Origin: Millisia brevis NBRC 105863
GTDB taxonomy: Bacteria > Actinomycetota > Actinomycetes > Mycobacteriales > Mycobacteriaceae
DNA: 64,000 nucleotides
Reading direction: 5' to 3'
Assembly: GCF_001552615.1 (NCBI RefSeq)
Contig: NZ_BCRN01000006.1
Coordinates: forward strand, 62,001-126,000
The position numbers and the translations under genes are program-made. Shown here piece after piece: positions 10,983-64,000 of this stretch; within the stretch, counting starts at the first letter, position 1; every line of letters starts with the position of its first letter. A model generated the notes under the pieces. The model was not told the DNA's origin and made no database searches. It saw nothing but the letters and a program-made list of their open reading frames with translations.

Positions 10983-13686
<2,704 letters not shown>

Positions 13687-51424: not shown

Positions 51425-51859
51425 TCAGTCCGAGGGGCGATTCACTGGAATGACGCGGACGATGCCGTCCAAACCGTCGAAGTCGTCAGGGTTTGTCGTG
51501 TAGAGGGGCAGCATCGCGGCAGTCGAAACGGAAGCGATCATAAGGTCGGCTATCCGCCGCCGGGGCGTTCTGCCGCGGGCTTGGACCGCAGCGCTTATGC
51601 GTCCGAATATGCGAGCAGCGTCGGCGTCGAAGGGCAAGGGGTCGAACTCGTTCTCGACACGCTGAAGGACCGCGGCGCGGCGCGCGCGCTCGTCGGCCGC
51701 CCGGGCGTCGTTGCCGCTCACGAGATGAACGCCGGCGGAGAGTTCGGCCAGTGTGATTGCGCTGATCGCCATCTCATCGGGCAGTTCTTCGGGATCGATC
51801 CCGTGCCGAAGTATCAAGATGTTTGTGTCGAGCAACCCGCGCTGCGGCTCATCGGGCAT
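51425..51859 (-). CDS. vapC: VapC-like PIN-domain toxin
   Basis: 144-residue PIN domain ribonuclease. Acidic residues D11 (LLDTNIL), E39 (TLAEL) and D105 (RIADLMIA) plus the C-terminal TTNPDDF fit VapC. These toxins cleave specific RNAs and are held inactive by the paired antitoxin. ATG 51859 overlaps the antitoxin gene by 11 bp, the usual coupling. It is the first clear accessory gene at the left edge of the island. Confidence 0.9.
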   Translation of the reverse strand: MPDEPQRGLLDTNILILRHGIDPEELPDEMAISAITLAELSAGVHLVSGNDARAADERARRAAVLQRVENEFDPLPFDADAARIFGRISAAVQARGRTPRRRIADLMIASVSTAAMLPLYTTNPDDFDGLDGIVRVIPVNRPSD

Positions 51860-52118
51860 ACGGGTCGCTCAAGCTTTCGTCGTACGTACGTTCTTGATCC
51901 GCCCGAAACTTCTCTACATCGATCAGTGGAACCAGTATCGAGCCACGGGCAAACTCTGCGCGCGAAACGAAGTTCGATCGCCGACGCAGAGGGATGAGTT
52001 CTCCGATCCGGTGTCCGTCGCGGGTGACTGTGAAGGAATCGCCGCCTTCCACCGCGTCCATGATCTCCTTGGATCGCATGCGGAGGTCACGCTGGCTGAC
52101 TTCACGCGGAGCACTCAT
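51849..52118 (-). CDS. Phd/YefM-family antitoxin
   Basis: 89-residue antitoxin: APREVSQRDLRMRSKEIMDAVEGGDSFTVTRDGHRIGELIP is the Phd/YefM DNA-binding fold, with a flexible C-terminal tail (FRADQERTYDES) that would wrap the toxin. Its stop overlaps the toxin start by 11 bp. ATG 52118 lies within a palindrome that is its probable own operator. Confidence 0.88.
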   Translation of the reverse strand: MSAPREVSQRDLRMRSKEIMDAVEGGDSFTVTRDGHRIGELIPLRRRSNFVSRAEFARGSILVPLIDVEKFRADQERTYDESLSDPYAR

Positions 52119-52128
52119 GTGTCACATG
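52116..52128. promoter_or_regulatory. Palindrome CATGTGTCACATG over the antitoxin start
   Basis: A perfect 13-bp palindrome centred on T52122 covers the antitoxin ATG. Autoregulation by an antitoxin-toxin complex binding here is typical of these systems. Confidence 0.55.
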
Positions 52129-52470
52129 ATAGCACGCTGTAGCACGGCTTGGAGAGACAAGCATACGCAGAGGATGTTGCTGATGCGGTCACGTTTCGTG
52201 GGCATATTGACGTGAGCCATTACGGACTCCAGGTCGGGGAGTCGTGTGAAGTCTCGTCGGCGACCTACTGGGTGTCTCGCGCTCCGTGAGAGACGCGGAT
52301 TGTCGGTGGACACTGAAAGTGGTAGTGCTGCCAGCAATCTGGGAGTCTCTGACTTCGATCGATCCAGTCAAGTAGAACGTTCGCGTGACGCTTGAAACGA
52401 GAGTTCCGACGAATTGACGCCTGCGCGGACCTCAATGCCAGCATGGTTGGAGTCGTTGGGGGTCGCCGCT
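52129..52470. other. Gap of about 340 bp without a recognised gene
   Basis: Lower GC than the flanking chromosome, with no credible coding frame. It could be remnant DNA of a lost element, but I cannot identify one. Confidence 0.4.
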
Positions 52471-53011
52471 CTAGTCTAACGTCGTTGAGTCAACATCTGT
52501 CGCCTTGTACATGCGCTCGAAATGTTCGGCATCGGCGGCTCGGAGGAACTCCATGCAACGCCGGATCTGCCCGTGAACGGCGCGAGCGTCCAGTACGTCG
52601 ACAGTCTCGCTCCCCTCACCGTGGGAGTAGCGGTTGCAGAAGTCGCAGGCGCTCTTCCTCTTCCTTGGCGTCAATCGCCTCGCGACCCAGTGTGACGATC
52701 GCCGATGCACTGGCACCAGCGAGGAACGCCGATAGGTTCGCGTCCACCCACCTGCGAGTGAAGACGGCCATGGTAGGGGCTGGACTCGAATCGCCCTCCG
52801 CAATGCTCGTCCGCTGCCGCTGGCGGTCCTCCCAGATGACGTCTGCCACTGAGCTGCCCTCAGCCACGCTCAGGAGCAACTCCGACAGAGTGGATTTTCC
52901 GCTGCCGTTGTGGCCGTAGACGACGGTCCTAGATCCGGCCGGAAGTTCCTCAGCCCAGAAGCCCTTATCCAGCGACCGCCAACGGGATCTGACATCAAGT
53001 CTGCGAAGCAT
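52471..53011 (-). pseudogene. Remnant of an AAA-family ATPase gene (AAA_13/RloC-like), internally deleted
   Basis: From ATG 53011 about 131 residues read as an ATPase N-terminus: LPAGSRTVVYGHNGSGKSTLSELLL (Walker A residues 33-41) then a helical segment to a stop at 52616. A second frame from about 52700 to 52471 reads like a C-terminal tail (RRCMEFLRAADAEHFERMYK). Intact AAA_13 proteins are about 700 residues, so most of the gene, including Walker B, is missing. A large deletion plus frameshift is inferred. Confidence 0.6.
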
Positions 53012-53092
53012 AACTTGGAACCCTAGTCGTCATCACCGACATCATGTCGTTCGTGGGTCAGGACCACGGACCGTGCGTGCGTCATTTCCCTC

Positions 53093-53144
53093 TGTCAACG
53101 ACGGTTGAAATGTGACCCCTTTTCGACGGTTGAAAGTTGACCCC
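53093..53144. mobile_element. Solitary IS21-like end with duplicated transposase-binding motif
   Basis: TGTCAACGACGG begins at 53093, and CGACGGTTGAAANNTGACCCC occurs at 53099-53119 and 53124-53144 (25 bp apart). TGTCAA ends with internal repeats are typical of IS21-family termini. No istA or istB genes are present, so this is an isolated end or deletion scar. Family assignment is from recall. Confidence 0.42.
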
Positions 53145-53299
53145 CTATTGGTTGTTGGTTGGTTAGTCGTCGGTTGTTGTAGCCGAAACTGGCGCAGCGG
53201 GGGTGAGAAAGTCGAATCAGCTTCAGTCGGCACGCAGTGGAGACCTACTGGAGCGTTGTTCATGGCTGAGGAACACGACTCCCAGATTGTTGTCACTCA

Positions 53300-53337
53300 C
53301 TCCCATCTATGGTGTCAAACTCTCATCTACCGTGTCA
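53300..53337. repeat. Two direct repeats CTCNCATCTA..GTGTCA
   Basis: Copies at 53300-53317 and 53320-53337 (20-bp period) with three mismatches, preceded by TGTCACTCA. They resemble a second, different IS-end structure. The 53338-53679 stretch that follows holds no credible gene. Confidence 0.55.
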
Positions 53338-53679
53338 TCCGACACGGATGGCAGCGGAAGCCCGGCGAAGATGAAGTCGACACTACTGGTAACCCTGCAT
53401 ATTCGATCGCTGCATAATCTCAGTAGGGATGGGATCCCCCCGTACCGGAGGTAGGCGATCACGGCCAGCGGCCTGGATCTCGAGGGCGTTCGTGGCGAGT
53501 AGGCCCATGCGAACCGGGGGCTCGCTACGCTAGCCGTCGAATGCGTGAGCCGTAGTCAATTCGCCAGCCAAGGCGATCTGAATCGCTATGTTCGGACCGA
53601 CGGAGGCGAACAGAATGTCGGCCCCGTCTGCTTGGATGTCGGTGAGCCCGATTGACGGGGACGACGAGTGGGAGTCGCG

Positions 53680-54168
53680 ATGGCGCAGTCAGTATTCTTC
53701 AGTTTCCAGTACGAGCCCGACAACTGGCGTGTCCAGCAAGTAATGAACATGGGTGCAGTTTCCGGAGGTTCGGCCTTCACTCCGCAGGACTGGGAGTCCG
53801 TGCGCTATAAGACTGACGCCGCCATCGAGAAGTGGATTCATGAGCAGATGTCGTACACGAAGGCCGTTATCGTCCTCGTGGGCGCGAGCACGGCAGATAG
53901 CCGCTGGGTCAAACACGAGATTATCAAGGGGTGGAACGACCATCGTCCCCTGCTGGGAGTCCGTATTCACAATCTCCTGGACAAGGATGGATACGCGTCC
54001 TCGTGGGGCGATGACCCGTTTGCCGCCATTTCTATGACGGGCGGCGGCACGATGGCGGACTACGTAGAGGTCATCAACCCGAGCGGCGGCGACAGCAAAG
54101 CCGTCTACCGAACGATCCAGGACAACTTGGAGGATTGGGTGAATTCCCGTGCCTACAAGTCATCGTGA
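53680..54168 (+). CDS. ThsB-like TIR-fold protein (MTH538/DUF1863 type)
   Basis: 162 residues forming a whole TIR-like domain: SVFFSFQYEPDNWRVQQVMN opens it, then DWESVRYKTDAAIEKWIHEQM, VIVLVGASTADSRWVKHEIIKGW, and GVRIHNLLDKDG. E80 of the WVKHEI motif is at the position of the catalytic Glu used for NAD+ cleavage by TIR enzymes. This subfamily includes Thoeris ThsB, which makes an NAD-derived signal in phage defence; no ThsA homologue follows here. ATG 53680 is 5 nt after GGGAG. Its last 20 bp overlap the HIT gene, so the products are co-expressed. GC is visibly lower than in the flanking chromosome. Confidence 0.88.
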   Translation: MAQSVFFSFQYEPDNWRVQQVMNMGAVSGGSAFTPQDWESVRYKTDAAIEKWIHEQMSYTKAVIVLVGASTADSRWVKHEIIKGWNDHRPLLGVRIHNLLDKDGYASSWGDDPFAAISMTGGGTMADYVEVINPSGGDSKAVYRTIQDNLEDWVNSRAYKSS

Positions 54169-54595
54169 CTGTCCATTTTGCAACATCGTTCGACGCGACG
54201 ATCTGGACGCTCGGGAGGTCTACCGTGACGAGCACGTCATAGCGTTCTTTCCCACCGAGCCTGCAGTACTGGGGCACACAATGGTCGCACCTCGCGAGCA
54301 CATTCCAGATATCTGGTCACTGCACGAGGATATTGCGACGCATCTAGCGCGCGCTACTGTCCGGGTCGCATCAGCTGTCCGTGAGGCGACGGAGTTGAAA
54401 GGTTTGAACATCATCCAATCGAATGGAGAGGTCGCAACACAAACGATCTTCCACCTCCATGTGCACCTTGTCCCACGATGGGATGGCGACGCGATGGGAC
54501 CTATCTGGCCCAACGAGACGGATTACACAGAGCAGGCAAAGGATCTGATGCAGGAGCGAGTTCGACAGGCTTGTCGGAGAATCGACACCCGATGA
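54149..54595 (+). CDS. HIT-family nucleotide hydrolase/transferase
   Basis: 148-residue HIT protein. CPFCNIV (residues 8-14) and the triad H102-L-H104-V-H106-LVP are intact, with H104 the expected nucleophile. HIT enzymes cleave phosphoramidates, dinucleoside polyphosphates or NAD-like nucleotides. GTG 54149 overlaps the TIR gene by 20 bp, and its TGA overlaps the next ATG (ATGA). A signal-degrading or processing role is therefore inferred. Confidence 0.9.
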   Translation: MPTSHRDCPFCNIVRRDDLDAREVYRDEHVIAFFPTEPAVLGHTMVAPREHIPDIWSLHEDIATHLARATVRVASAVREATELKGLNIIQSNGEVATQTIFHLHVHLVPRWDGDAMGPIWPNETDYTEQAKDLMQERVRQACRRIDTR

Positions 54596-55074
54596 CCACG
54601 CAACCTCCAAGCCCAGACTCCGAGGATAGACGGAAACATCTCGACTTTATCCAGGCCGTCGTCACGCGCATGTCCGCAGCGTCGTCAAACGCGAAGGCAT
54701 GGCTTCTGCCTGTGGTCACTGCCGCATACGGTTACGCCCTCACCCGCAGGGCCGACTCCGTTGCTCTACTCGGCCTCGGGGCCACTCTGCTTTTCGCCTA
54801 TCTGGACGCCAACTACCTGCGGCAGGAGAAGCGCTTCCGAAGCCTCTATAAGGCGGTTGCCTCAGGGCGGTACGACATCGAGAGCTTTTCTCTTCAACCG
54901 GACGATCTGCCATCTGAGGTGCCATCCAAGGAGAAGGGTGATTGGCCGCCAGGAACGCCACGCTGGATCAATCGGCTGCTGCCAGGTCCAAGCGTTTGGC
55001 TTTCATGGTCAGTCGGGATCTTCTATTTTCCGGTTGCCGCGTTGGGTTTGGTGATCGCCTGTGTGGTGCGGTAG
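54592..55074 (+). CDS. Small membrane protein linked to TIR and HIT genes
   Basis: 160 residues: hydrophilic start, then LDFIQAVVTRMSAASSNAKAWLLP, two close hydrophobic segments (about 36-52 and 55-72), a charged stretch DANYLRQEKRFRSLYKAVASG, a Pro-rich acidic loop, and a third segment at about 136-158. I recall this helix-TM-TM-LRQE-(K/R)-F-R layout as a family without assigned function that occurs beside TIR-like genes. It could be the membrane effector of the system. ATG 54592 overlaps the HIT stop. Confidence 0.75.
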   Translation: MTTQPPSPDSEDRRKHLDFIQAVVTRMSAASSNAKAWLLPVVTAAYGYALTRRADSVALLGLGATLLFAYLDANYLRQEKRFRSLYKAVASGRYDIESFSLQPDDLPSEVPSKEKGDWPPGTPRWINRLLPGPSVWLSWSVGIFYFPVAALGLVIACVVR

Positions 55075-55173
55075 AGCTGTGCATGCCTATAGGCTTATAG
55101 GACAGCAGCCAGAGGTTGTTCACGCGAGGCGTTGGGTCTTTTGACAGTGTTGGCGTTGCCGAGGCGGACGCTG

Positions 55174-57936
55174 TCAGACTCGCCCCTTCGACTTCCCTGT
55201 TCCCTCTCCGATCATTCGGGCGTAGCGGGACAACAGTAGTACTTCGCATTGCTCGACGTCACGAATGTCGACGTCGAGGTGCTTCTCGACGATTGCATCA
55301 AGCCTTCGATGCGCGGACAGGAGTTCGCTGGGCATTCCATTGGCATCGTAGAGTGTTTCCAACGTTTTGCCCGGGAACATCTTTCTTACTTCCAGAACTT
55401 CTCTTCCCGCGGCGATCGCCGCAGCTCGAAAGCCACTATCGGACTGCGGGATTGGAAAAGTGTTCCAGACCAGGGTGTTCGAGAAGTTACTGTCCGCGCG
55501 CGTGTGCCCGCCCGCAAGTCGTTGCCACACCGCGAAGATTCGGGATCCGGCGATGGCGAAGATGAATCCGTCCGAGTCGGGGGCCGTGAACAGTGTGTTG
55601 TTGACGACGACATCGGGAGTCGAGTGCCCTGCGGGCAGGTAGAGGCGACTGTGGCTTGTGACCTTTGGGATAGCCAGGTAAGGCTCGGAGGGTTGGCGGT
55701 AGTTGGTGAACAGGTGCGGGGTCAACGCCTTACGGTTCGCCTCCGCATCTGAGCTGTCAGTGCGCCGCTTCTTGACCTCTCGCAGTCGCTCCTCAATCAG
55801 CTCGCTGCCAGCCCAGTCGTCCGGGTCTGCGTCGCGTAGCCACAGAACCCACCGTGGCTTTCCCTTCAGCAGGGTGGTGTTGGAGAGTAGCGGCCTGATG
55901 AACTTGGACGCGATGGGGTCTGCTTGAAAGGCGGGGAGAGCCTCAGGCTTCACGACGAGGTTGTTGAAGTCCCATAATTTGTTCCCCTCGACCAGTGGCG
56001 GCAAGTGGGTAGGTACCGGTTTCCGCGATGCGCGGACGGCGACATTTGGGGCGTCCAGTAGGTAAGGATTGATATTTCGGACGCTCCGAACCTCCGGCTT
56101 CCCTACGCCGTTGGCGGGGTAGCGGAACAGCTTGCGCTCGATGAGCTTAGTCGCCCGTACCAGTCCGACGATCACGACGTGAACACCAGCCGGGTTGTCG
56201 GACTCGGAGTCCCAGTCGAAGGGACGGTGTGCAAATCCAATCGTCCACCCCGAATTCAGGATGGGGGGCCACAGCGGCGCGACTGACTGGCCCTGGCAGA
56301 TCGAGCTGGTGGCGACGAACGCGAACCGGCAGTTCGGGGCTGTGAGGTACTCTGACGCTTTCCGGAACCATGCCGAAACGTAGTCAAGGTTGCCGTTGTA
56401 GTCTCGCCCCAGGGCGGTCCGGAGGTCGGCAGTCTGTGCTGGGGTGCGTTCCTTTTGGCCAGCGTAAGGTGGGTTTCCGAAGACGATCACCTTTTCGCTG
56501 GACGGAAGTACCGCTGTCCAGTCGATTTCCAGCGCGTTTCCTTGCTTGATCTTGGACGCGATGGTGATAGGTAGGCGGTCGGGTGCGACGCCGAACTCCA
56601 GTTCCATTTGCTGGTTGGCGAGGTGATCCACGAGCAGCATCGCGGTCTCGGCGATGCGGGCAGGCCACTCGTCGATCTCGATGCCGTAGAAGTGGTCGAG
56701 GGTGACCTGTATGTCGGCCGTGACGTCGAACGTCAGTTGCGCACGGTCCACGCCCGTGGCAGTTCCGTCGAGCATGTCGAGGTCGCGGCGCCGGCGCAGG
56801 ATCTCAAGTTCGAGAGAGCGTAGCTCGCGGTAGGAGACGACGAGGAAGTTGCCACATCCGCAGGCTGGGTCGAGGAACCGCAGCTGTCCCAACTCATTAT
56901 GGAGACGTGTGAGCTGGCCCTTGTCGTCCCACGACCGCTTGAGGCGATCCCGGTAGTCGTCGAGAAACAGCGGCTCGATTGTCTTGAGGATGTTCGCTTC
57001 GGTCGTGTAGTGCTCGCCGCCGTGCCGACGGGCTTCCTTGCTCTTGACGGTTTGGAACATCGACCCGAACACTGCGGGCGAGATGATTGACCAGTCGAAC
57101 TCGCACGCCGCGATCAGCGCATCACGGAACGCCGAGGTCAGCGCGGGCAGCCGTAGTGGATCTCCGAAAAGTCCACCGTTGATGTATCGAAACGCCGCAT
57201 ATGGGCTGTCTGCGCGAAGCTGGCGCTGCTTCTCATCAGTGTCGAGAATCTCGAACAAGCCCTGCAGATCCTTGTGAAGATCGGCCGCGGTCGTGCTTTC
57301 ACGTAGGTACCGCTCGAACAGTCCCTCCGGCTTCCACATGTCCGCGTCGTCACCGAACAGCAGGAATAGCAGCCGGGCAAGGAGCAGGGTGGCGTCGTGT
57401 TCGCCGACGCCAGCGGCTTCGAGTTCGGTGTAGAGGGTGCCCATAAGTCGGGCGGCGGCGACGGATGCGGTTTCGGCTTCGTGGTCGAAGGCGTCACGCA
57501 TCTTGTCGAGTAGGGCGACGAGGGTGATGTCGGTATCGAAGTCGAGTTCGATCGCTTGTAACCGGTCGGTCAGGTGTGTGGCCTGGTCACCGACGTGGTG
57601 TTCGTGGACGAGGAGTTTGGCGTTGGCGCTTCCGAGCTGGGCGCGTCGCGGCCAGCGCCATTCCTGTCGGCGCTCGTTGCTGAAGATGACGAGGCGTTCG
57701 TGGTTGTCCTTGCCCACGAGCACGTCGATCATTCGCTGTGTCTTGCGTGGCGGGAGCACTGGACAGTGCCAGATGCGCAGTCCCTTGTAGCCGGCGACCT
57801 GCGTGAGTGAGAAGATCTCGTCATCGACCTCGATTGCGAGGTCGGGGCGGTCTGGGTTGTTCCAGCCGAGCTCGTCGATGAATAGGGTGCGGAATTCCCG
57901 TGTGTCGACGAGGTCGAGTAGGCGGGTGCTAGTCAC
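55174..57936 (-). CDS. Type II/ISP-like N6-adenine DNA methyltransferase (MmeI/YeeA-type)
   Basis: 920-residue DNA methyltransferase. A helical N-terminal region is followed by GEHYTTEANI (residues 307-316), SAM motif I FLDPACGCGNF (354-364) and catalytic NPPY (488-491), the N6-adenine (gamma-class) order. The C-terminal 350 residues probably contain target recognition (FVATSSICQGQSVAPLWP, FDWDSESDNPAGVHVV). No clear nuclease motif is seen in it. GTG 57936 overlaps the helicase stop (GTGA), so it pairs with that gene as the modification half of a restriction-like system. Confidence 0.88.
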   Translation of the reverse strand: MTSTRLLDLVDTREFRTLFIDELGWNNPDRPDLAIEVDDEIFSLTQVAGYKGLRIWHCPVLPPRKTQRMIDVLVGKDNHERLVIFSNERRQEWRWPRRAQLGSANAKLLVHEHHVGDQATHLTDRLQAIELDFDTDITLVALLDKMRDAFDHEAETASVAAARLMGTLYTELEAAGVGEHDATLLLARLLFLLFGDDADMWKPEGLFERYLRESTTAADLHKDLQGLFEILDTDEKQRQLRADSPYAAFRYINGGLFGDPLRLPALTSAFRDALIAACEFDWSIISPAVFGSMFQTVKSKEARRHGGEHYTTEANILKTIEPLFLDDYRDRLKRSWDDKGQLTRLHNELGQLRFLDPACGCGNFLVVSYRELRSLELEILRRRRDLDMLDGTATGVDRAQLTFDVTADIQVTLDHFYGIEIDEWPARIAETAMLLVDHLANQQMELEFGVAPDRLPITIASKIKQGNALEIDWTAVLPSSEKVIVFGNPPYAGQKERTPAQTADLRTALGRDYNGNLDYVSAWFRKASEYLTAPNCRFAFVATSSICQGQSVAPLWPPILNSGWTIGFAHRPFDWDSESDNPAGVHVVIVGLVRATKLIERKLFRYPANGVGKPEVRSVRNINPYLLDAPNVAVRASRKPVPTHLPPLVEGNKLWDFNNLVVKPEALPAFQADPIASKFIRPLLSNTTLLKGKPRWVLWLRDADPDDWAGSELIEERLREVKKRRTDSSDAEANRKALTPHLFTNYRQPSEPYLAIPKVTSHSRLYLPAGHSTPDVVVNNTLFTAPDSDGFIFAIAGSRIFAVWQRLAGGHTRADSNFSNTLVWNTFPIPQSDSGFRAAAIAAGREVLEVRKMFPGKTLETLYDANGMPSELLSAHRRLDAIVEKHLDVDIRDVEQCEVLLLSRYARMIGEGTGKSKGRV

Positions 57937-60900
57937 GAACGAACTCCCATGCTGGAAACAATGCGGATCGGATCTTTGCCGGTGCGAGTGGCGATGACGA
58001 GCTGCCCATCCTTGTGAAGGGCGGTGATTAGGGCGGTCAGGTCGTCGTTGTCAGCGCCGTTTCGGACCGCCCGGCGCAGGCGGTGCTCGGCGTCCTTCAT
58101 CAGGGGATGCTGGTACAGCGCTTCGAGGGCGAGTTCGGTGTCGGCGGCGTGATTGTGGAGGGTTACGCTAAGCCGGTTCCACAGGGTGCGGCGTACTCCA
58201 CGTGGCCTGCCAGCCGCAACGTGAGGGTTGGCCAGGTCGCCGCGAACGAGCGTTTCGAGGAGACTGTCGTGGTCGTCGGCGTGTTCGAGACCGCGTTCTT
58301 CGGGAGTGGCTTCGAAAGCCCGGAGCACCTCATGGCCGGTGAGCAGACTGGTCTGCCCGTCGGCGGTGGCGGATCCGAACCCGTCGATGCCGGATTCTGT
58401 TCTTACATAGCAGATCACGCCGTCATTGGTGTCTGAGAGGCGGCGGGTGCGGGTGGCCGAGATCATGTCCGGGAGGCTGGCGATCTTTGCCGCGAGTTCT
58501 GGGGTGTCCTTCTGCGCCTGGTGCCAGCGTTGGTAGGCGAGGCTTGAGGCGTCGACGTCGTCGGCGGCATCTTGATCGTCGAGGTTGCCGTTGTAGAGGT
58601 CGGTGATGGCCTTGACTTCGGTGTCGCTCCCGAAGAACTGCTCGTCGGAGCCGAATGCCTCGGCGTTGGCGTGCAGTCGGTCGCTGATGCGTTGCCGTAG
58701 GGAGATGACATTGTCGACGGACTCGTGGAAGAACGAGTACAGCAGGACTGTGTCGGCGTTCTGGCCGACGCGATCGACGCGGCCGGCGCGTTGGATCAGC
58801 CGGATGATCGCCCACGGCAGGTCGTAGTTGACCACGATGTGCGCGTCCTGTAGGTTCTGTCCTTCGCTGAGGACGTCGGTGGCGATTAGGATTCGCAACT
58901 CGTTGTCGGGTGTGGTGTCGGTCTGCTGGCCGGGCAGTGTATTCGAGCGGGGGGAGAAGCGGTGCGCGAGGCGGGTGGGGTCATCGCTGTCACCGGTGGC
59001 GATCCCGACCCTGGTGATGCCAGCGGCTTGCAATGCGGCGCCGATGTAGTCGGCGGTGTCCTTGTATTCGGTAAACACCAGCACCTTTTCGTTCGGATGC
59101 TTGGTGCTCAGCAGGGTGAGAAGGGCGTCGAGTTTGGAGTCCCGTCCCGGCGTCCAGTTTCCATAGCTGGCAAGGAGGGACCAGAGGGTGTTTGTGTCGG
59201 TGGCCAGATCCTGACGCAGATCTTTGGTGAAGATGTCTGGCCTGACCCAGGTTAGCCCCGCCGGATTCGCTTCTCGGAGTGCCTCGTAGCGCAGCGAAGC
59301 TTCTTGACTCACCTCGTCCGCGGTAGGAATCTTGTCGTTGTTCGGGTCTTCGTCTTCACCGAAGGTGTTCTCGGTGATGGTTCCGGTCGGTATCGCCAGG
59401 TCGTTGTCGATTGCGTACGAGAACAATTCGTTGCGTGCGATGTGCCGTTTGAGCGAGAGGGTGAACGAGTGCCCACACGAGGACAAGCGCTTGTAGAACG
59501 TGGTGCGGACGAACCCGGCGACGTTACCGCGTCCGCGGGCGAGATTGTCGACGAACTCCTTCTCCGATTCTCGGAGTTGGACGGTCGTTGAGATGTAGCT
59601 GCCGAGTTCGTAGCGGGGCAGGATCAGTTTGGTCATGGCGTCGAGGGTGGTGTCGCTGGCCATTAGCACGGCTGGATCTTCGGGTCCGAAGGAGTGATCG
59701 ACAGGCTTTGGGATGCGTTGCGGGAACTGGAAGCGGGTGCCGTTTGCGAACTCGAGATACTGGCGGCCGTTCTCGTCCGTAAGTGAGTAGTTGTTCTTGA
59801 TGAAGGTGCGGGTGCGCCGCACCAAGTGTTCGCTCATCAACCGCTTCCAGTCGTCGGGGTCCTCCGATCGTCGGAATGCCGCCATTGTGGTCGTTTTGCC
59901 GTCGACCTTGTCCGCCAGGCGTGGGTCGGCGGACAGTGCGTTGACCGGGGCGATTCCGAGGTCGTCGTCATCGTCGACGTACAGGGCTAGCTGGTTCGCC
60001 ACGTCTTGAAACCGGATGTTGTACGGGGTGGCGGTCAACAGCAGTGCCTTGCTGTCGTTGACGTGGATGTAGTCCTGGATCGCCTTGTAGTCGCGGCGGG
60101 TGTCGTTGCGCAGGGTGTGGGATTCGTCGACGATGACGAACGCATACCGCCGCAGTTCGGGCAGGATCGTGTGCGCCATGCTGTAGGGGACGACCCGACC
60201 ATGCAGGTCGTATGCTTCAAAGTGCTCTTCCCACATTGAGACCAAGTTCTTCGGGCACACCACGAGTGGCATGTATCCGTGCTCATCTCGCAGCATCAAC
60301 GCGACCGCGATTGCGGTGAGGGTCTTACCTAGTCCGACGACGTCGCCGAGCATGGTGCCGCGTTTAGTCATGATTCGGCGTGCAAGTGTCTGCACCGCGG
60401 TGGCCTGGTAGTCCAGCAATTGCTTGCTGATCTCGGAGGGCACCGAGTACTCGGCCAAACCCTCGCGTACGTCGCGAGAGAGGTCGTAGCAAACCTTCAA
60501 GAACACCTCGTACGGGCGGCGGGGCTCTTTGCGGACCCAGGATTCGTCGAGCAGGTCAAGCACGTCGGCGGTGACCGGCCGGCTGAACCGGTCGTTCCAG
60601 CGGTCTTCGAACCACTGCGCAAGTGTTTCGGCGCCGGATGTATCGAGGACGTCGACGTTGAGTTCGAGATTGTGGGTGAGGCCGGGGGCCGTAAGGTTGG
60701 AAGAACCGACAAAACCGGTGATCGGGTTATTCAGGTCCTGCCGGTGACAGATGTAGGTCTTTCCGTGCAGGGGCCGGCGGGTAAACACCTTGATCTCCAC
60801 TGCGCCCTGGGCGAGAAGATCCCGCAGCGACTGCAACGCCGCACGATCTGCGTTGGTCGGAAGCCCTCGCATCAGCTGTGTGCGTAGCTGTTCGAGCAGC

Positions 60901-61199
60901 TGTGCCTTGCGTTCACGGGCTGCGTTCGCGTCAGCGTCCGGCCGAGGTTTGCCGTCGACCCCGGCCTGTAGATCTTCCAACGTTTCCTGCTGCGGGCCGG
61001 TCATAACCATCCCGATCAGGATTCGCACAACCGGACCGGTTGAGCCAGCGGCGACCTTCTCCCGGACGAGGGAGTCAAACGCACCCCAGCCGCGAAGGTT
61101 GAAGTAGCCGACCGCGACGTCCATCCGGTCCGACACCTGCAGCGACTGCTGAAGGTGCGTCCCAAGGTTGAACTTGATGTTGTCGAAGATCCGTGTCAC
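57933..61199 (-). CDS. PLD-nuclease / SNF2-type helicase fusion of a restriction-like system
   Basis: 1088 residues. N-terminal phospholipase-D-like domain: H145-x-K147 in RPLHGKTYICHRQD and S166-S-N168 in GFVGSSNLTAPGL, one HKD set that would dimerise. SF2 helicase core: Walker A GDVVGLGKT (285-293), DESH box (358-361), LLLTATP, and motif VI QRAGRVDRVGQ. The C-terminal 250 residues are unassigned. It likely translocates on DNA and cuts it. GTG 61199 follows AAGGAG by 11 nt; its stop overlaps the methyltransferase. Resembles DISARM-class 1 parts (helicase, methylase, PLD), but only two genes are seen. Confidence 0.88.
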   Translation of the reverse strand: MTRIFDNIKFNLGTHLQQSLQVSDRMDVAVGYFNLRGWGAFDSLVREKVAAGSTGPVVRILIGMVMTGPQQETLEDLQAGVDGKPRPDADANAARERKAQLLEQLRTQLMRGLPTNADRAALQSLRDLLAQGAVEIKVFTRRPLHGKTYICHRQDLNNPITGFVGSSNLTAPGLTHNLELNVDVLDTSGAETLAQWFEDRWNDRFSRPVTADVLDLLDESWVRKEPRRPYEVFLKVCYDLSRDVREGLAEYSVPSEISKQLLDYQATAVQTLARRIMTKRGTMLGDVVGLGKTLTAIAVALMLRDEHGYMPLVVCPKNLVSMWEEHFEAYDLHGRVVPYSMAHTILPELRRYAFVIVDESHTLRNDTRRDYKAIQDYIHVNDSKALLLTATPYNIRFQDVANQLALYVDDDDDLGIAPVNALSADPRLADKVDGKTTTMAAFRRSEDPDDWKRLMSEHLVRRTRTFIKNNYSLTDENGRQYLEFANGTRFQFPQRIPKPVDHSFGPEDPAVLMASDTTLDAMTKLILPRYELGSYISTTVQLRESEKEFVDNLARGRGNVAGFVRTTFYKRLSSCGHSFTLSLKRHIARNELFSYAIDNDLAIPTGTITENTFGEDEDPNNDKIPTADEVSQEASLRYEALREANPAGLTWVRPDIFTKDLRQDLATDTNTLWSLLASYGNWTPGRDSKLDALLTLLSTKHPNEKVLVFTEYKDTADYIGAALQAAGITRVGIATGDSDDPTRLAHRFSPRSNTLPGQQTDTTPDNELRILIATDVLSEGQNLQDAHIVVNYDLPWAIIRLIQRAGRVDRVGQNADTVLLYSFFHESVDNVISLRQRISDRLHANAEAFGSDEQFFGSDTEVKAITDLYNGNLDDQDAADDVDASSLAYQRWHQAQKDTPELAAKIASLPDMISATRTRRLSDTNDGVICYVRTESGIDGFGSATADGQTSLLTGHEVLRAFEATPEERGLEHADDHDSLLETLVRGDLANPHVAAGRPRGVRRTLWNRLSVTLHNHAADTELALEALYQHPLMKDAEHRLRRAVRNGADNDDLTALITALHKDGQLVIATRTGKDPIRIVSSMGVRS

Positions 61200-61341
61200 G
61201 CGGGTCAGCGCTCCTTACATCTCGATCGAAGCTGAACGTAGCTGTCCTGGTCGTCAGACGGAGAACAGCGCCCGAGCTTCCTTGGCCGTCGCCGCGTGAG
61301 AAGCACAACCTGTTGATCGAGGATGCGATCCCGTTGTACCG

Positions 61342-62844
61342 TCATGAGCCTGGCCTCGGTGCGCTGGCATATCTGCCCCACGGCTCGGAAGCGAGGTCAG
61401 CGTGTTTCTGCGTCACCTGGTCGCTATACCCAAGCATCTCTGCGACGACCGGGGCTGGGACTTGAGTGACGAGTTCCCGAATTGCAGTGTTTCGTGCGCC
61501 GAGCAGGTTGATCCCGAGATCGCGGAGTCGGATCATCACGGTGTTGGGGTGCAGGTGTTCTCCAGGTCTGTAGCCAGGAAAGAGCCACGGACTGTCTGAT
61601 CCGCTAGTTCGCAGGTTGTGACGTTGGGTGATGTGTTGTCGAAGAAGCGAGTCGAAGGGGGCTGGGACAGGGGAGGGCGTCACCCCCAGCTGCAAAGCAA
61701 GACCGTCGGGCGAGACGATCACTTTCGCCATGGGTAGCTCGGCGATCTTTACGAGCGGCTGAGCATAAAGAAGCAGCAGGGTACCGGCCACGCGGTAGGG
61801 AAGTGATTCACTGTCGCCGTCGAGGAGTTCTCGGATCCACGCGAGTCGTTGCTCTTGCGTGAGCAGTCGTACGGACTTGGCCTGACGAAACCCGAGGGAC
61901 ACTGAACGATTGATGCGTGAGTTCGCGCACCACACAAGGAAAGTCCGGATCAAGTGGCGTGTCGTCGGGCCAGCAGTCACCCATTGGTCTACGTCCTGCT
62001 GGACGCACGTCGCGATCGTGCGCCCGTGCTCGTCGTGAAGCCACTGAAGAAACTTCAGAGTCTCCGTGATCTCTTGCTTGGACGAGTGAACTGGCCCGCG
62101 TGTTGAGTTTCCGGCCAGCGCAATTTCGTTGATCCTGCGTAGATGATGCCAGGTAGCGAACTGACGAACAGGTCGCTCGATGTCAGGTTCGTCAACGTGC
62201 GTGAGCTTCTCGTCCAGCCATCGCTCGAACAGTGCGATGTACTTGTCGCGCGGGGGAATAGCCTTGTGATGCAGGAGAACTGATCGAAGGTGCTCAACAT
62301 GTTTGCCGCTTGGTTCAAACTGATCAAGACCGTCATGGCTGAGTGGTGTCGTTCCGGAGGCAATCGCTGACAGGAGGTTCTGCACTTTGCCGGAACGCTT
62401 CCAGGTAAGGATGCTCTCTGGCCGGTCGGCGCCGCATAGCGCATCGATAAGGGTCTTGATGCCGTCCGGTGAACCGTCGCGCAAGAGGTCGCGTTCTAGA
62501 TCGGATCGCAGTGCGCAGCGCGCACAGCTACCCCGACGGTAGGGGCGTGCTTCCTGCTCACAAGTCAGACATTGATAATTCTGACTGATTCCTGCGCAGC
62601 CGCGGCAGACGGGCTGTTCGCCGATGTCTAGGCGACCCGGGAGCATTCGGTTCATTCCGCAACTGGGACAGGTGCCGTAGAGGTTCGTGGCGTCGTAGTA
62701 GCACGAGTTGCAGATTTTGCCGTCTGGCCATGTGACTGCGGCCTTGCGCATGTGGCGGTCACAGCGAGCACACTGAAGATCGCCGTCGGTTGCTTGAGGC
62801 CGCCCGCGAACAGTGTTGCGTCGGCGTGGTTCAATCGTCGTCAC
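61342..62844 (-). CDS. Zinc-ribbon protein with degenerate tyrosine-recombinase domain
   Basis: 500 residues. The first 115 carry six CxxC pairs (CARC, CNSC, CPSC, CRGC, CLTC, CARC), enough for three zinc ribbons. The C-terminal 200 residues follow the tyrosine-recombinase fold (LPYRVAGTLLLLYAQPLVKIAELPM ... LGARNTAIRELVTQVPAPVVAEMLGYSDQVTQKHADLA), but the HxxR His, the LGH His and the Tyr are altered, so catalysis is doubtful. GTG 62844 is chosen because AGGA lies 6 nt upstream; TTG 62850 is possible. It overlaps the XRE gene by 14 bp and belongs to the recombinase operon. It may target or control the active recombinase. Confidence 0.75.
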   Translation of the reverse strand: MTTIEPRRRNTVRGRPQATDGDLQCARCDRHMRKAAVTWPDGKICNSCYYDATNLYGTCPSCGMNRMLPGRLDIGEQPVCRGCAGISQNYQCLTCEQEARPYRRGSCARCALRSDLERDLLRDGSPDGIKTLIDALCGADRPESILTWKRSGKVQNLLSAIASGTTPLSHDGLDQFEPSGKHVEHLRSVLLHHKAIPPRDKYIALFERWLDEKLTHVDEPDIERPVRQFATWHHLRRINEIALAGNSTRGPVHSSKQEITETLKFLQWLHDEHGRTIATCVQQDVDQWVTAGPTTRHLIRTFLVWCANSRINRSVSLGFRQAKSVRLLTQEQRLAWIRELLDGDSESLPYRVAGTLLLLYAQPLVKIAELPMAKVIVSPDGLALQLGVTPSPVPAPFDSLLRQHITQRHNLRTSGSDSPWLFPGYRPGEHLHPNTVMIRLRDLGINLLGARNTAIRELVTQVPAPVVAEMLGYSDQVTQKHADLASEPWGRYASAPRPGS

Positions 62845-63166
62845 TGACAATCCTCGCTCGTCGTGGACGGACAGACTTGTTCAATTCGACGACGTTCTCT
62901 CGGCCGGCACTGGCTGCCTTCTTGCGAGCATTGGCGGCTGTCACGGTGACTAGATCCTCTGGGCCGCAGTCGAAGATGTCGCAGAGCGCGGCAATGAGTT
63001 TGAGTGACACGCGCTCGGGACGTTGGTGGACCAACCGGTAGACCTGTGGCCGGGAAAGTGTGATTCCGCGCTCATGGAGGCGGGGGATGAGGTCCGTGCT
63101 GTTGTGCATTTGGTTTCCGGCCATGAGCTCGGCGAGCCGCCAGGTGTAGTCGACATCGCGTTTCAC
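62831..63166 (-). CDS. XRE-family (Cro/C1-type) regulator
   Basis: 111-residue helix-turn-helix protein: HERGITLSRPQVYRLVHQRPERVSLKLIAALCDIFDCGPEDLV is a Cro/C1 fold of the HTH_26 kind. The C-terminal tail is basic. GTG 63166 overlaps the recombinase stop by 4 bp (GTGA), and its stop overlaps the zinc-ribbon gene. It may control excision of the island or expression of the downstream restriction genes. Confidence 0.88.
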   Translation of the reverse strand: MKRDVDYTWRLAELMAGNQMHNSTDLIPRLHERGITLSRPQVYRLVHQRPERVSLKLIAALCDIFDCGPEDLVTVTAANARKKAASAGRENVVELNKSVRPRRARIVSDDD

Positions 63167-64000
63167 GATGCTCCACCATTCTCGGTGGCCGAGAGTGCGG
63201 CAGAGATCGTCGCATCGAGCGCGGTGCGGAGGGTTCGGGTGCGATAGTCGCTGCTCACGCAGCTGTAGATGGCGGTGGTGGATGCGTGTTCGTGTCCCAT
63301 TTGGTGTTGGACGAACATCGAGTCCCAGCCGTCTTCAAGTAGGTGTGTCGCGTACGAACGTCGGAAGGAGTGAAGGTCGAGTCCGGACGAGAGGTCGAGG
63401 TCATCGCAGTACCGGCGAAATCGGCGGATGAGAGTGGTCTCCGATACTAGATTTCCTCGTTCGCTGGGGAACAGGTCGATTCCATCGTCCATGTGGGGCT
63501 GGCCGTTCTCGAGCCAATCTGCGATGACCTCGGGAGTCCAATCGAAGACGGTGAGAACGCCGCGGCGCTTGGGAGGTGAGCCTTTCTTGGCTTTGCCATA
63601 ACGCACGTTGACGAGCCCGTACTTGCCGAACTCTTTCGCGTGGGGGTTTCGAGCGAAGTCGACGGTTTGGAGGTGCGCCAATTCGTTGAACCGCAGACCG
63701 TAAGAGTATGCGAGCTTGAACATCACCGAATCTCGGTATGCGGGGAGCCATCCCTTACGACCTGATGCCGAGACCGCAGAAACCTGTTCATCGGCGTGGT
63801 CGAAGAAGTCCTGAATCTCGCGCTTGGTGAATGCGCGTTTGTCCGGCCGCGATTCGTTCTCCTGGACGTGCTGCGCGGTGTTCCAGTCGAAGAAGACCTG
63901 CGAGGGATGCGTACCGAAGAGTTCCTCGCAGACGCGGTCCCAGCCGTAGTCCGGATTGGCGACGTAGGAGCAGAACTGCCGCAGCCCTACCTGGTAGGAC
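63163..64000 (-). CDS. Tyrosine recombinase/integrase, N-terminus beyond the window
   Basis: The frame is open from the stop at 63163 to the right edge, giving about 279 residues without a start, so the gene continues outside. All catalytic elements are visible: Arg in YSYGLRFNELAHL, Lys in RYGKAKKG, HSFRR (HxxR), MGHEH and Tyr in TTAIYSCV. The SAM-like N-terminal domain is partly seen (YQVGLRQFCSYVANPDYGWDR). It is probably the mobility enzyme of the island; no attachment site was recognised. Confidence 0.9.
   Translation of the reverse strand, partial: SYQVGLRQFCSYVANPDYGWDRVCEELFGTHPSQVFFDWNTAQHVQENESRPDKRAFTKREIQDFFDHADEQVSAVSASGRKGWLPAYRDSVMFKLAYSYGLRFNELAHLQTVDFARNPHAKEFGKYGLVNVRYGKAKKGSPPKRRGVLTVFDWTPEVIADWLENGQPHMDDGIDLFPSERGNLVSETTLIRRFRRYCDDLDLSSGLDLHSFRRSYATHLLEDGWDSMFVQHQMGHEHASTTAIYSCVSSDYRTRTLRTALDATISAALSATENGGAS

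Follow-up and report, generated by a model that had tools for sequence, protein, structure and literature searches.

An MmeI-like methyltransferase paired with a PLD-SNF2 fusion protein in Millisia brevis: a putative two-component, ATP-dependent restriction-modification system

The gene pair and its proposed function

The window analysed here is a 64,000-nucleotide stretch of Millisia brevis NBRC 105863 (contig NZ_BCRN01000006.1, positions 62,001 to 126,000 of the forward strand). On its minus strand lie two overlapping genes, which encode an MmeI-like methyltransferase and a protein joining a phospholipase D (PLD)-type nuclease to an SNF2 helicase (hereafter the helicase). The two products probably form a two-component, ATP-dependent restriction-modification system, in which the PLD-SNF2 protein would be the restriction (R) subunit and the methyltransferase a modification and specificity (M/S) subunit, docked via the domain that stands in place of the MmeI nuclease, called here the N-domain. 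Motor, nuclease, methyltransferase and target recognition domain (TRD), which such a system needs, are all present with intact motifs, as far as sequence can tell. The two genes are as follows.

55174..57936, minus strand: MmeI-like gamma N6-adenine methyltransferase gene (proposed M/S subunit), 920 amino acids (aa), GTG start
57933..61199, minus strand: PLD nuclease-SNF2 helicase fusion gene (putative R subunit), 1088 aa, GTG start

An earlier note on this DNA had proposed a two-gene, restriction-like unit, perhaps a minimal or distinct class, with reading frames overlapping by 4 bp. The proposal is supported by the analysis, and the overlap is confirmed: the two genes share GTGA, and GGGAG stands a few bases 5' of the second start. 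The helicase is full-length (76-81% identity) in 8 of the 10 genome-contig loci fetched for comparison (loci are numbered with the prefix L). The pairing is beyond chance, because the methyltransferase gene directly follows the full-length helicase gene in all eight. The methyltransferase is incomplete near the contig end in L006, L007 and L008.

The N-domain in place of the MmeI nuclease

The domains and motifs of the methyltransferase, all on the minus strand, are listed below.

57472..57936, minus strand: N-domain in place of the MmeI nuclease, residues 1-155
57166..57399, minus strand: MmeI helical spacer (PF20465), residues 180-257, Pfam match over cut-off
56128..56940, minus strand: MmeI DNA-methyltransferase domain (PF20473), residues 333-603, Pfam match over cut-off
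56845-56871, minus strand: motif I DPACGCGNF, residues 356-364
56464-56475, minus strand: motif IV NPPY, residues 488-491
55444..56055, minus strand: MmeI TRD (PF20466), residues 628-831, Pfam match over cut-off
55264..55410, minus strand: MmeI C-terminal domain (PF20467), residues 843-891, Pfam match over cut-off

Motif I together with NPPY bears out the assignment to the gamma N6-adenine methyltransferases made in the earlier note. When the PDB sequence of MmeI (5hr4) was compared with a profile of eight relatives, positions 159-910 aligned with 713 bits and nothing aligned before position 159; the PD-(D/E)XK nuclease of MmeI occupies residues 1-155 (PMC4833311). MmeI_N, the Pfam family of this nuclease, had no match in the window methyltransferase, nor in any of the three paired MmeI-bodied enzymes scanned (L028, L029 and L038). 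It was found in all four unpaired relatives L044-L047, the bodies of which are 40-45% identical to that of the window enzyme; unpaired means that the clade helicase, defined by at least 34% identity over at least half of the query, was not seen in the loci fetched. With our own profiles, the nuclease was detected in nine of nine unpaired MmeI-bodied methyltransferases (L044-L047 and L059-L063, the first four being also the seeds of the nuclease profile) and the N-domain in none of them. In the paired enzymes the nuclease profile gave short, weak stretches only, with a best E of 4e-5 and nearly all at the spacer boundary. On these domain predictions, the window methyltransferase is an MmeI enzyme with another domain in place of the nuclease.

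PADLOC models for Type IIG restriction enzyme-methyltransferases matched the window methyltransferase with 835 bits (DrmMI was a minor match at 79.6 bits) and the paired methyltransferase of Synechocystis with 2662 bits over its entire length. The Type IIG label implies a nuclease, which is missing in the paired MmeI-bodied enzymes scanned and likely resides in the adjoining gene. On a Methylobacterium plasmid (L047, 3533-10190), an MmeI-like enzyme that has the nuclease domain is followed by two further genes, one annotated as phospholipase D family (PLDc_2 at 20 bits, below the cut-off) and one encoding a Cas3-like HD-helicase.

Association of the N-domain with the helicase

In a collection of 72,556 plasmid records, the window query detected the N-domain in 20 records and the Synechocystis query in 22; both lists are complete, and their union amounts to 23. 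Clade helicases were present in at least 24 plasmid records, as counted in the best 40 of 608 and the best 60 of 531 helicase records. Both elements occurred together in 22 of the 23 N-domain records and, among the matches listed, in 22 of the 24 helicase records. In 21 of these 22 co-occurrences they had the same strand and were no more than about 0.7 kb apart (coordinates compared by eye), and NZ_CP063660 is rearranged. Several of the records are near-copies, for example four that come from Synechocystis 6803 or a strain derived from it, and the number of independent cases is therefore lower. In two records of Leptolyngbya boryana the helicase match stops near residue 607 of the window protein, and no N-domain match was obtained. 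The start of the methyltransferase matches follows the same division: among the best 40 of 403 records, 11 matches started at residues 1-6, all 11 in clade-helicase records, and 29 started at residue 106 or later, none of them in the listed clade-helicase records.

Within the family of the window strain, 9 of 351 genomes had a helicase match with an E of at most 1e-80. In eight of them an N-domain methyltransferase stood beside it, one of these helicases being divided between contig ends; the ninth copy is fragmentary. Of 396 genomes from the phylum, three carried the N-domain, each time with the end of a clade helicase directly upstream, which in L067 lies within a 166-aa frame. At the level of sequence, the N-domain is thus linked near-strictly to the helicase. 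No relative of the methyltransferase was found in viral contigs, where the helicase was not searched; helicase matches were present in 13 phage records, all below 60% identity and none reaching 80% query coverage.

The PLD-SNF2 protein

The Pfam matches of the 1088-aa protein (PLDc_2, RE_NgoFVII, SNF2-rel_dom and Helicase_C) agree with the fusion of a PLD nuclease to a superfamily 2 (SF2) helicase described in the earlier note. Its main features are as follows.

60555..61199, minus strand: PLD-type nuclease domain, about residues 1-215
60759-60767, minus strand: PLD motif HxK (H145, K147)
60690-60707, minus strand: PLD motif GSSNLT (N168), followed in the protein by E179
59970..60452, minus strand: first RecA-like SNF2 domain, about residues 250-410 (limits estimated), including DESH and TAT
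60321-60347, minus strand: Walker A GDVVGLGKT, in the first RecA-like domain
58725..59147, minus strand: second RecA-like domain (Helicase_C), about residues 685-825
58770-58793, minus strand: motif VI QRAGRVDR, in the second RecA-like domain

The label HKD, which had been given to the nuclease, is imprecise; the motif consists of HxK, GSSN and E179, without the Asp of the classical HKD signature. The order HxK-GSSN-E is presumably the same as in BfiI. In 19 of 21 clade helicases neither H145 nor K147 is replaced, and N168 and E179 are kept in all 21. The two exceptions, L041 and L039, are decayed copies, and the genes of L039 are in broken frames. In the Dolichospermum locus (L041, 5001-9206), K147 is replaced by D and the methyltransferase is cut to a 286-aa N-domain reading frame, so that the pair is either decayed or repurposed. 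Walker A, DESH, TAT and motif VI are kept in the relatives, with T389 changed to S in a few rows. No Pfam match was obtained for the approximately 260 C-terminal residues (826-1088).

In a tree of 33 helicases, computed without DrmD, SauUSI and CglI references and with L048 left out, the 21 clade members lay on one side of a branch with support of 100/99, which is subject to a long-branch warning. Six distant PLD-SNF2 helicases were fetched with their surroundings (L033-L036, L042 and L043), and three of them (L033, L034 and L043; 27-29% identity) are preceded by an Eco57I-type methyltransferase gene. In L033 a small gene on the opposite strand lies between the two. Truncated helicases from two different genomes end within Walker A (L078, 1372-2463) and just after it (L057, 7780-8880); the shared break point may be either a coincidence or a favoured site.

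Exchange of methyltransferase bodies and TRDs

The N-domain is also found on methyltransferase bodies of the Eco57I type in L027, L030 and L037 (Pfam, 81-96 bits). The bodies of L027 and L040 (Cyanobacteria) and L030 (Pelobacter) gave no match at E 0.001 in a BLAST search with the window body or with the MmeI-body profile, and those of L037 and L068 gave weak matches in these searches. The two types of body are distant relatives, because the bodies of L027, L030 and L037 have partial MmeI_Mtase matches (33-37 bits); the window methyltransferase itself barely reaches the Eco57I cut-off, with 25.5 bits. In haloarchaea, similar bodies occur in records without a detected N-domain (best 40 of 166 records).

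Among 13 close relatives (excluding L006 and L007, which are interrupted by contig ends, and L010, whose matches are those of L005), mean identity was 79% for the helicase, 77% for the N-domain, 67% for the methyltransferase domain, 43% for the TRD and 42% for the C-terminal domain, which makes the last two the most variable parts of the methyltransferase. In 11 of the 13 loci (without L008, which lacks the C-terminal part, and L048, with half a helicase), helicase identity was correlated with that of the N-domain (r=0.56, p=0.0006) and of the spacer (r=0.36, p=0.004) and weakly with that of the C-terminal domain (r=0.22, p=0.03). No correlation was found for the methyltransferase domain (r=0.05, p=0.32) or the TRD (r=0.03, p=0.39). 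At the level of sequence, both the TRD and the methyltransferase body are thus exchanged. The TRD of L008 is 81% identical to that of the window, and the two enzymes may share the same specificity.

Whether the N-domain is a dedicated coupling module, and the systems with it a separate class of ATP-dependent restriction systems, seems evenly balanced. Such a module would let methyltransferases of two or more types take turns in driving a conserved PLD-SNF2 motor-nuclease, namely the MmeI type in Actinomycetota and the Eco57I type in Cyanobacteria and Pelobacter, with the N-domain replacing the nuclease in each. If the reading of the pair as a two-component system is correct, single-chain Type IIL and motor-driven systems interconvert via the exchange of one N-terminal domain, and such a portable connector could be useful for building programmable restriction.

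Proposed mechanism and alternative explanations

In the mechanism proposed, the MmeI-type protein would read an asymmetric site via its TRD and methylate one adenine. On unmodified foreign DNA the same protein would serve as the specificity subunit and dock the PLD-SNF2 protein by the N-domain. The SNF2 motor would then travel along the DNA until the PLD domains from two sites meet, which would form the nuclease and lead to the cut. We infer docking, translocation, cutting, methylation and phage restriction from the sequences. Motor-driven restriction is favoured because there are two precedents: for CglI, which combines a PLD nuclease and an SF2 ATPase, translocation with cutting upon collision has been proposed (PMC5737866), and SauUSI demonstrates that nuclease and ATPase can share a chain and that two protomers build the PLD active site between them (PMC7913695). 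Self-protection by methylation of a lone strand is a known puzzle of MmeI (PMC3874165). If the proposed mechanism is true, the motor collision can demand two sites, which would answer the problem of the daughter duplex left unmodified.

Several observations weigh against this system or against the strict linkage of its parts. The Calothrix record AP018277 (L068) encodes an N-domain methyltransferase, and the 12 kb fetched from it revealed no clade helicase. BLAST with the window N-domain fails to detect the N-domain of Pelobacter (L030), which the Synechocystis query recovers at 33% identity. The N-domain adjoins the helicase gene, and linkage drag could therefore yield part of the gradient of distances described above. 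The AlphaFold models of both proteins are of low confidence (predicted local distance difference test, pLDDT, 52 and 40), and the comparison of the PLD domain with solved structures by sequence gave nothing below E 0.18. Finally, five methylated motifs with assigned enzymes are described for Synechocystis 6803, and the paired methyltransferase of its plasmid pSYSX (L027) is not among the enzymes named for them in the part of the source available; methylation by at least one relative is therefore doubtful.

GAAGGC was rejected as the motif of the paired Synechocystis methyltransferase: it is attributed to M.Ssp6803IV, and slr6095 is a type I M subunit. The name slr6050 was not mentioned in the literature searched. 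The gene of M.Ssp6803IV is presumably sll8009, on another plasmid.

Among the alternatives, a BREX- or DISARM-like exclusion system is unlikely. Methylation would then be the self mark, and the PLD-SNF2 protein would keep unmodified DNA from entering or replicating, with no double-strand cut directed to a site. Such a role is suggested by the best PADLOC models of the helicase (C3a139 (HKD+Snf2), DrmD, PLD_Helicase and BrxHI) and by BREX-related Type-2 systems, which pair an HKD-helicase with an N6-methyltransferase (PMC12839542). However, DUF499, the core of the BREX-related systems, had no match in the genome (the control was found in 1 of 14 genomes), and no DISARM core gene was found among the ten neighbouring proteins scanned at 51425-63999, as the earlier note had said of DrmA and DrmB. 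Moreover, no third gene family stands beside the pair in more than 6 of 23 loci, the most frequent one being a resolvase-type recombinase, and the catalytic HxK is intact in the 19 helicases mentioned. A kinship of the pair to DISARM as such is not supported: DrmD matched with 134.6 bits against a cut-off of 610, NF042964 scored higher, and DrmMI reached 79.6 bits against 835 for Type IIG. Membership in DISARM and in the BREX-related systems was rejected, since core genes are missing (DUF499 from the genome, the DISARM core from the ten proteins scanned) and DrmD is far below its cut-off. An MmeI-type methyltransferase, its cis nuclease exchanged for another domain, plus a PLD-SNF2 subunit in trans is a better frame.

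It is still less probable that the two genes encode independent enzymes, namely a methyltransferase and a SauUSI-like Type IV nuclease acting on foreign modified DNA, joined only by shared mobile elements. In favour of this, SauUSI also fuses PLD to SF2 and has a TRD of its own (PMC7913695), and about 260 C-terminal residues of the helicase have no Pfam match. On the other side stand the overlap of the genes, the N-domain-helicase linkage, which spans three phyla, and the absence of the methyltransferase's own nuclease where the helicase is present. The lowest probability is given to the N-domain being itself the nuclease, of a new fold or as an unrecognised PD-(D/E)XK, with the PLD-SNF2 protein as an accessory remodeller. 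The replacement of the MmeI nuclease at equal length (155 residues) agrees with this, and a degenerate PD-(D/E)XK was suspected by eye. The conserved residues of the N-domain include W25, W93 and W95. Nevertheless, no D...(D/E)xK signature was present in the invariant or near-invariant columns of 21 rows, the comparison with a profile of four MmeI_N domains, which is shallow, revealed no similarity and so did not support the suspicion, and the best match among PDB sequences was a threonine aldolase at E 0.024.

Genomic surroundings

The neighbouring features are given below.

61342-63999, continuing into L064 to about 6285, minus strand: tyrosine recombinase, small helix-turn-helix protein and 502-aa protein with a cysteine-rich N-terminus, directly upstream of the pair
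53668-55074, plus strand: candidate Thoeris-like cassette of three genes (TIR-HIT-membrane), downstream of the pair and convergent with the methyltransferase gene
52616-53011, minus strand: short AAA_13-like fragment (PDC-S06, 40 bits), on the left border of the region with low G+C
51425-52118, minus strand: PIN-domain (VapC-like) gene and a small upstream reading frame resembling its antitoxin, adjoining the AAA_13-like fragment

The G+C content is 60% at 52000-64000 vs 69% at 1-50000, and we read the surroundings of the pair as a small defence island. The 502-aa protein had no Pfam match. In PADLOC, the ThsB-like TIR protein of the cassette matched ThsB (188 bits) and PDC-M50B (158 bits), the HIT-family protein ThsC2 (57 bits) and the third protein PDC-M50A (67 bits); the cassette is a Thoeris-like candidate with an extra HIT gene. 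An integrase gene likewise lies upstream of the pair on a Gordonia plasmid (L029), where an ATP-binding protein without a PADLOC match is encoded directly 3' of the methyltransferase gene (12062-13339). In Anabaena (L037, 7503-9301) this position is taken by an ATPase (HEC-01A, 169 bits) and a DUF4276 protein. On two cyanobacterial plasmids, a VapC toxin gene and a small hypothetical gene are located between helicase and methyltransferase (L027, 10487-11120; L040, 8473-9106).

Comparison with known systems

The window methyltransferase shares the spacer, gamma methyltransferase, TRD and C-terminal domains with MmeI and the Type IIL enzymes. These have their own N-terminal PD-(D/E)XK nuclease, whereas the window pair has another domain at this place and a motor-nuclease in trans. 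The best NCBIfam match of the helicase is NF042964, a phospholipase D-like anti-phage protein, with 156.7 bits against a cut-off of 1100, and its best PADLOC match is C3a139 'HKD+Snf2', with 123 bits. A Listeria relative matches C3a139 over its full length (394 bits) and stands beside a site-specific methyltransferase of another kind and a DEAD helicase.

The BREX-related Type-2 systems (DUF499, HKD-helicase, N6-methyltransferase and DUF3780) have the HKD-SNF2 helicase and the N6-methyltransferase in common with the window pair, which is a unit of two genes with no DUF499 match in its genome. DUF3780 was not among the Pfam matches of the ten proteins at 51425-63999; the genome as a whole was not searched for it. 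An SNF2 helicase, an N6-methyltransferase and a PLD nuclease are likewise among the parts of DISARM class 1, which consists of DrmD, DrmMI, DrmA, DrmB and DrmC. DrmA, DrmB and DrmC were not found among the same ten proteins, and DrmA and DrmC were not sought genome-wide. The sole match in the genome to MZB (PF09369), the domain we take to be DrmB (DUF1998/MZB), lies in a 930-aa frame of contig C8, away from the pair.

CglI and NgoAVII use a PLD nuclease and an SF2 ATPase for ATP-dependent restriction, as proposed for the window pair. In these systems nuclease and helicase are separate proteins, the nuclease carrying a B3 domain (PMC5737866) and the helicase a Z1 domain, whereas the window protein is a fusion in one chain, in which Pfam matched neither B3 nor Z1 at E 0.001, and specificity apparently resides in the MmeI-type methyltransferase. 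The Type IV enzyme SauUSI joins an N-terminal PLD nuclease and an SF2 ATPase in one chain, like the window helicase, but carries its own TRD for 5-methylcytosine in that chain (PMC7913695); residues 826-1088 of the window protein gave no Pfam domain. In the Type ISP enzymes LlaGI and LlaBIII, nuclease, motor, gamma methyltransferase and TRD also work as one machine, built as one chain with an Mrr-like nuclease (PMC3874165), whereas the window pair has two chains and a PLD nuclease.

No description of the two-gene unit was found in the literature searched, which lacked most subscription papers, and the domain replacing the MmeI nuclease and its co-occurrence with the helicase therefore appear to be undescribed there. 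PLD-SF2 restriction enzymes, MmeI enzymes and the pairs of HKD-helicase and N6-methyltransferase in BREX-related systems are already known, and alongside these the unit is a variant of ATP-dependent restriction-modification.

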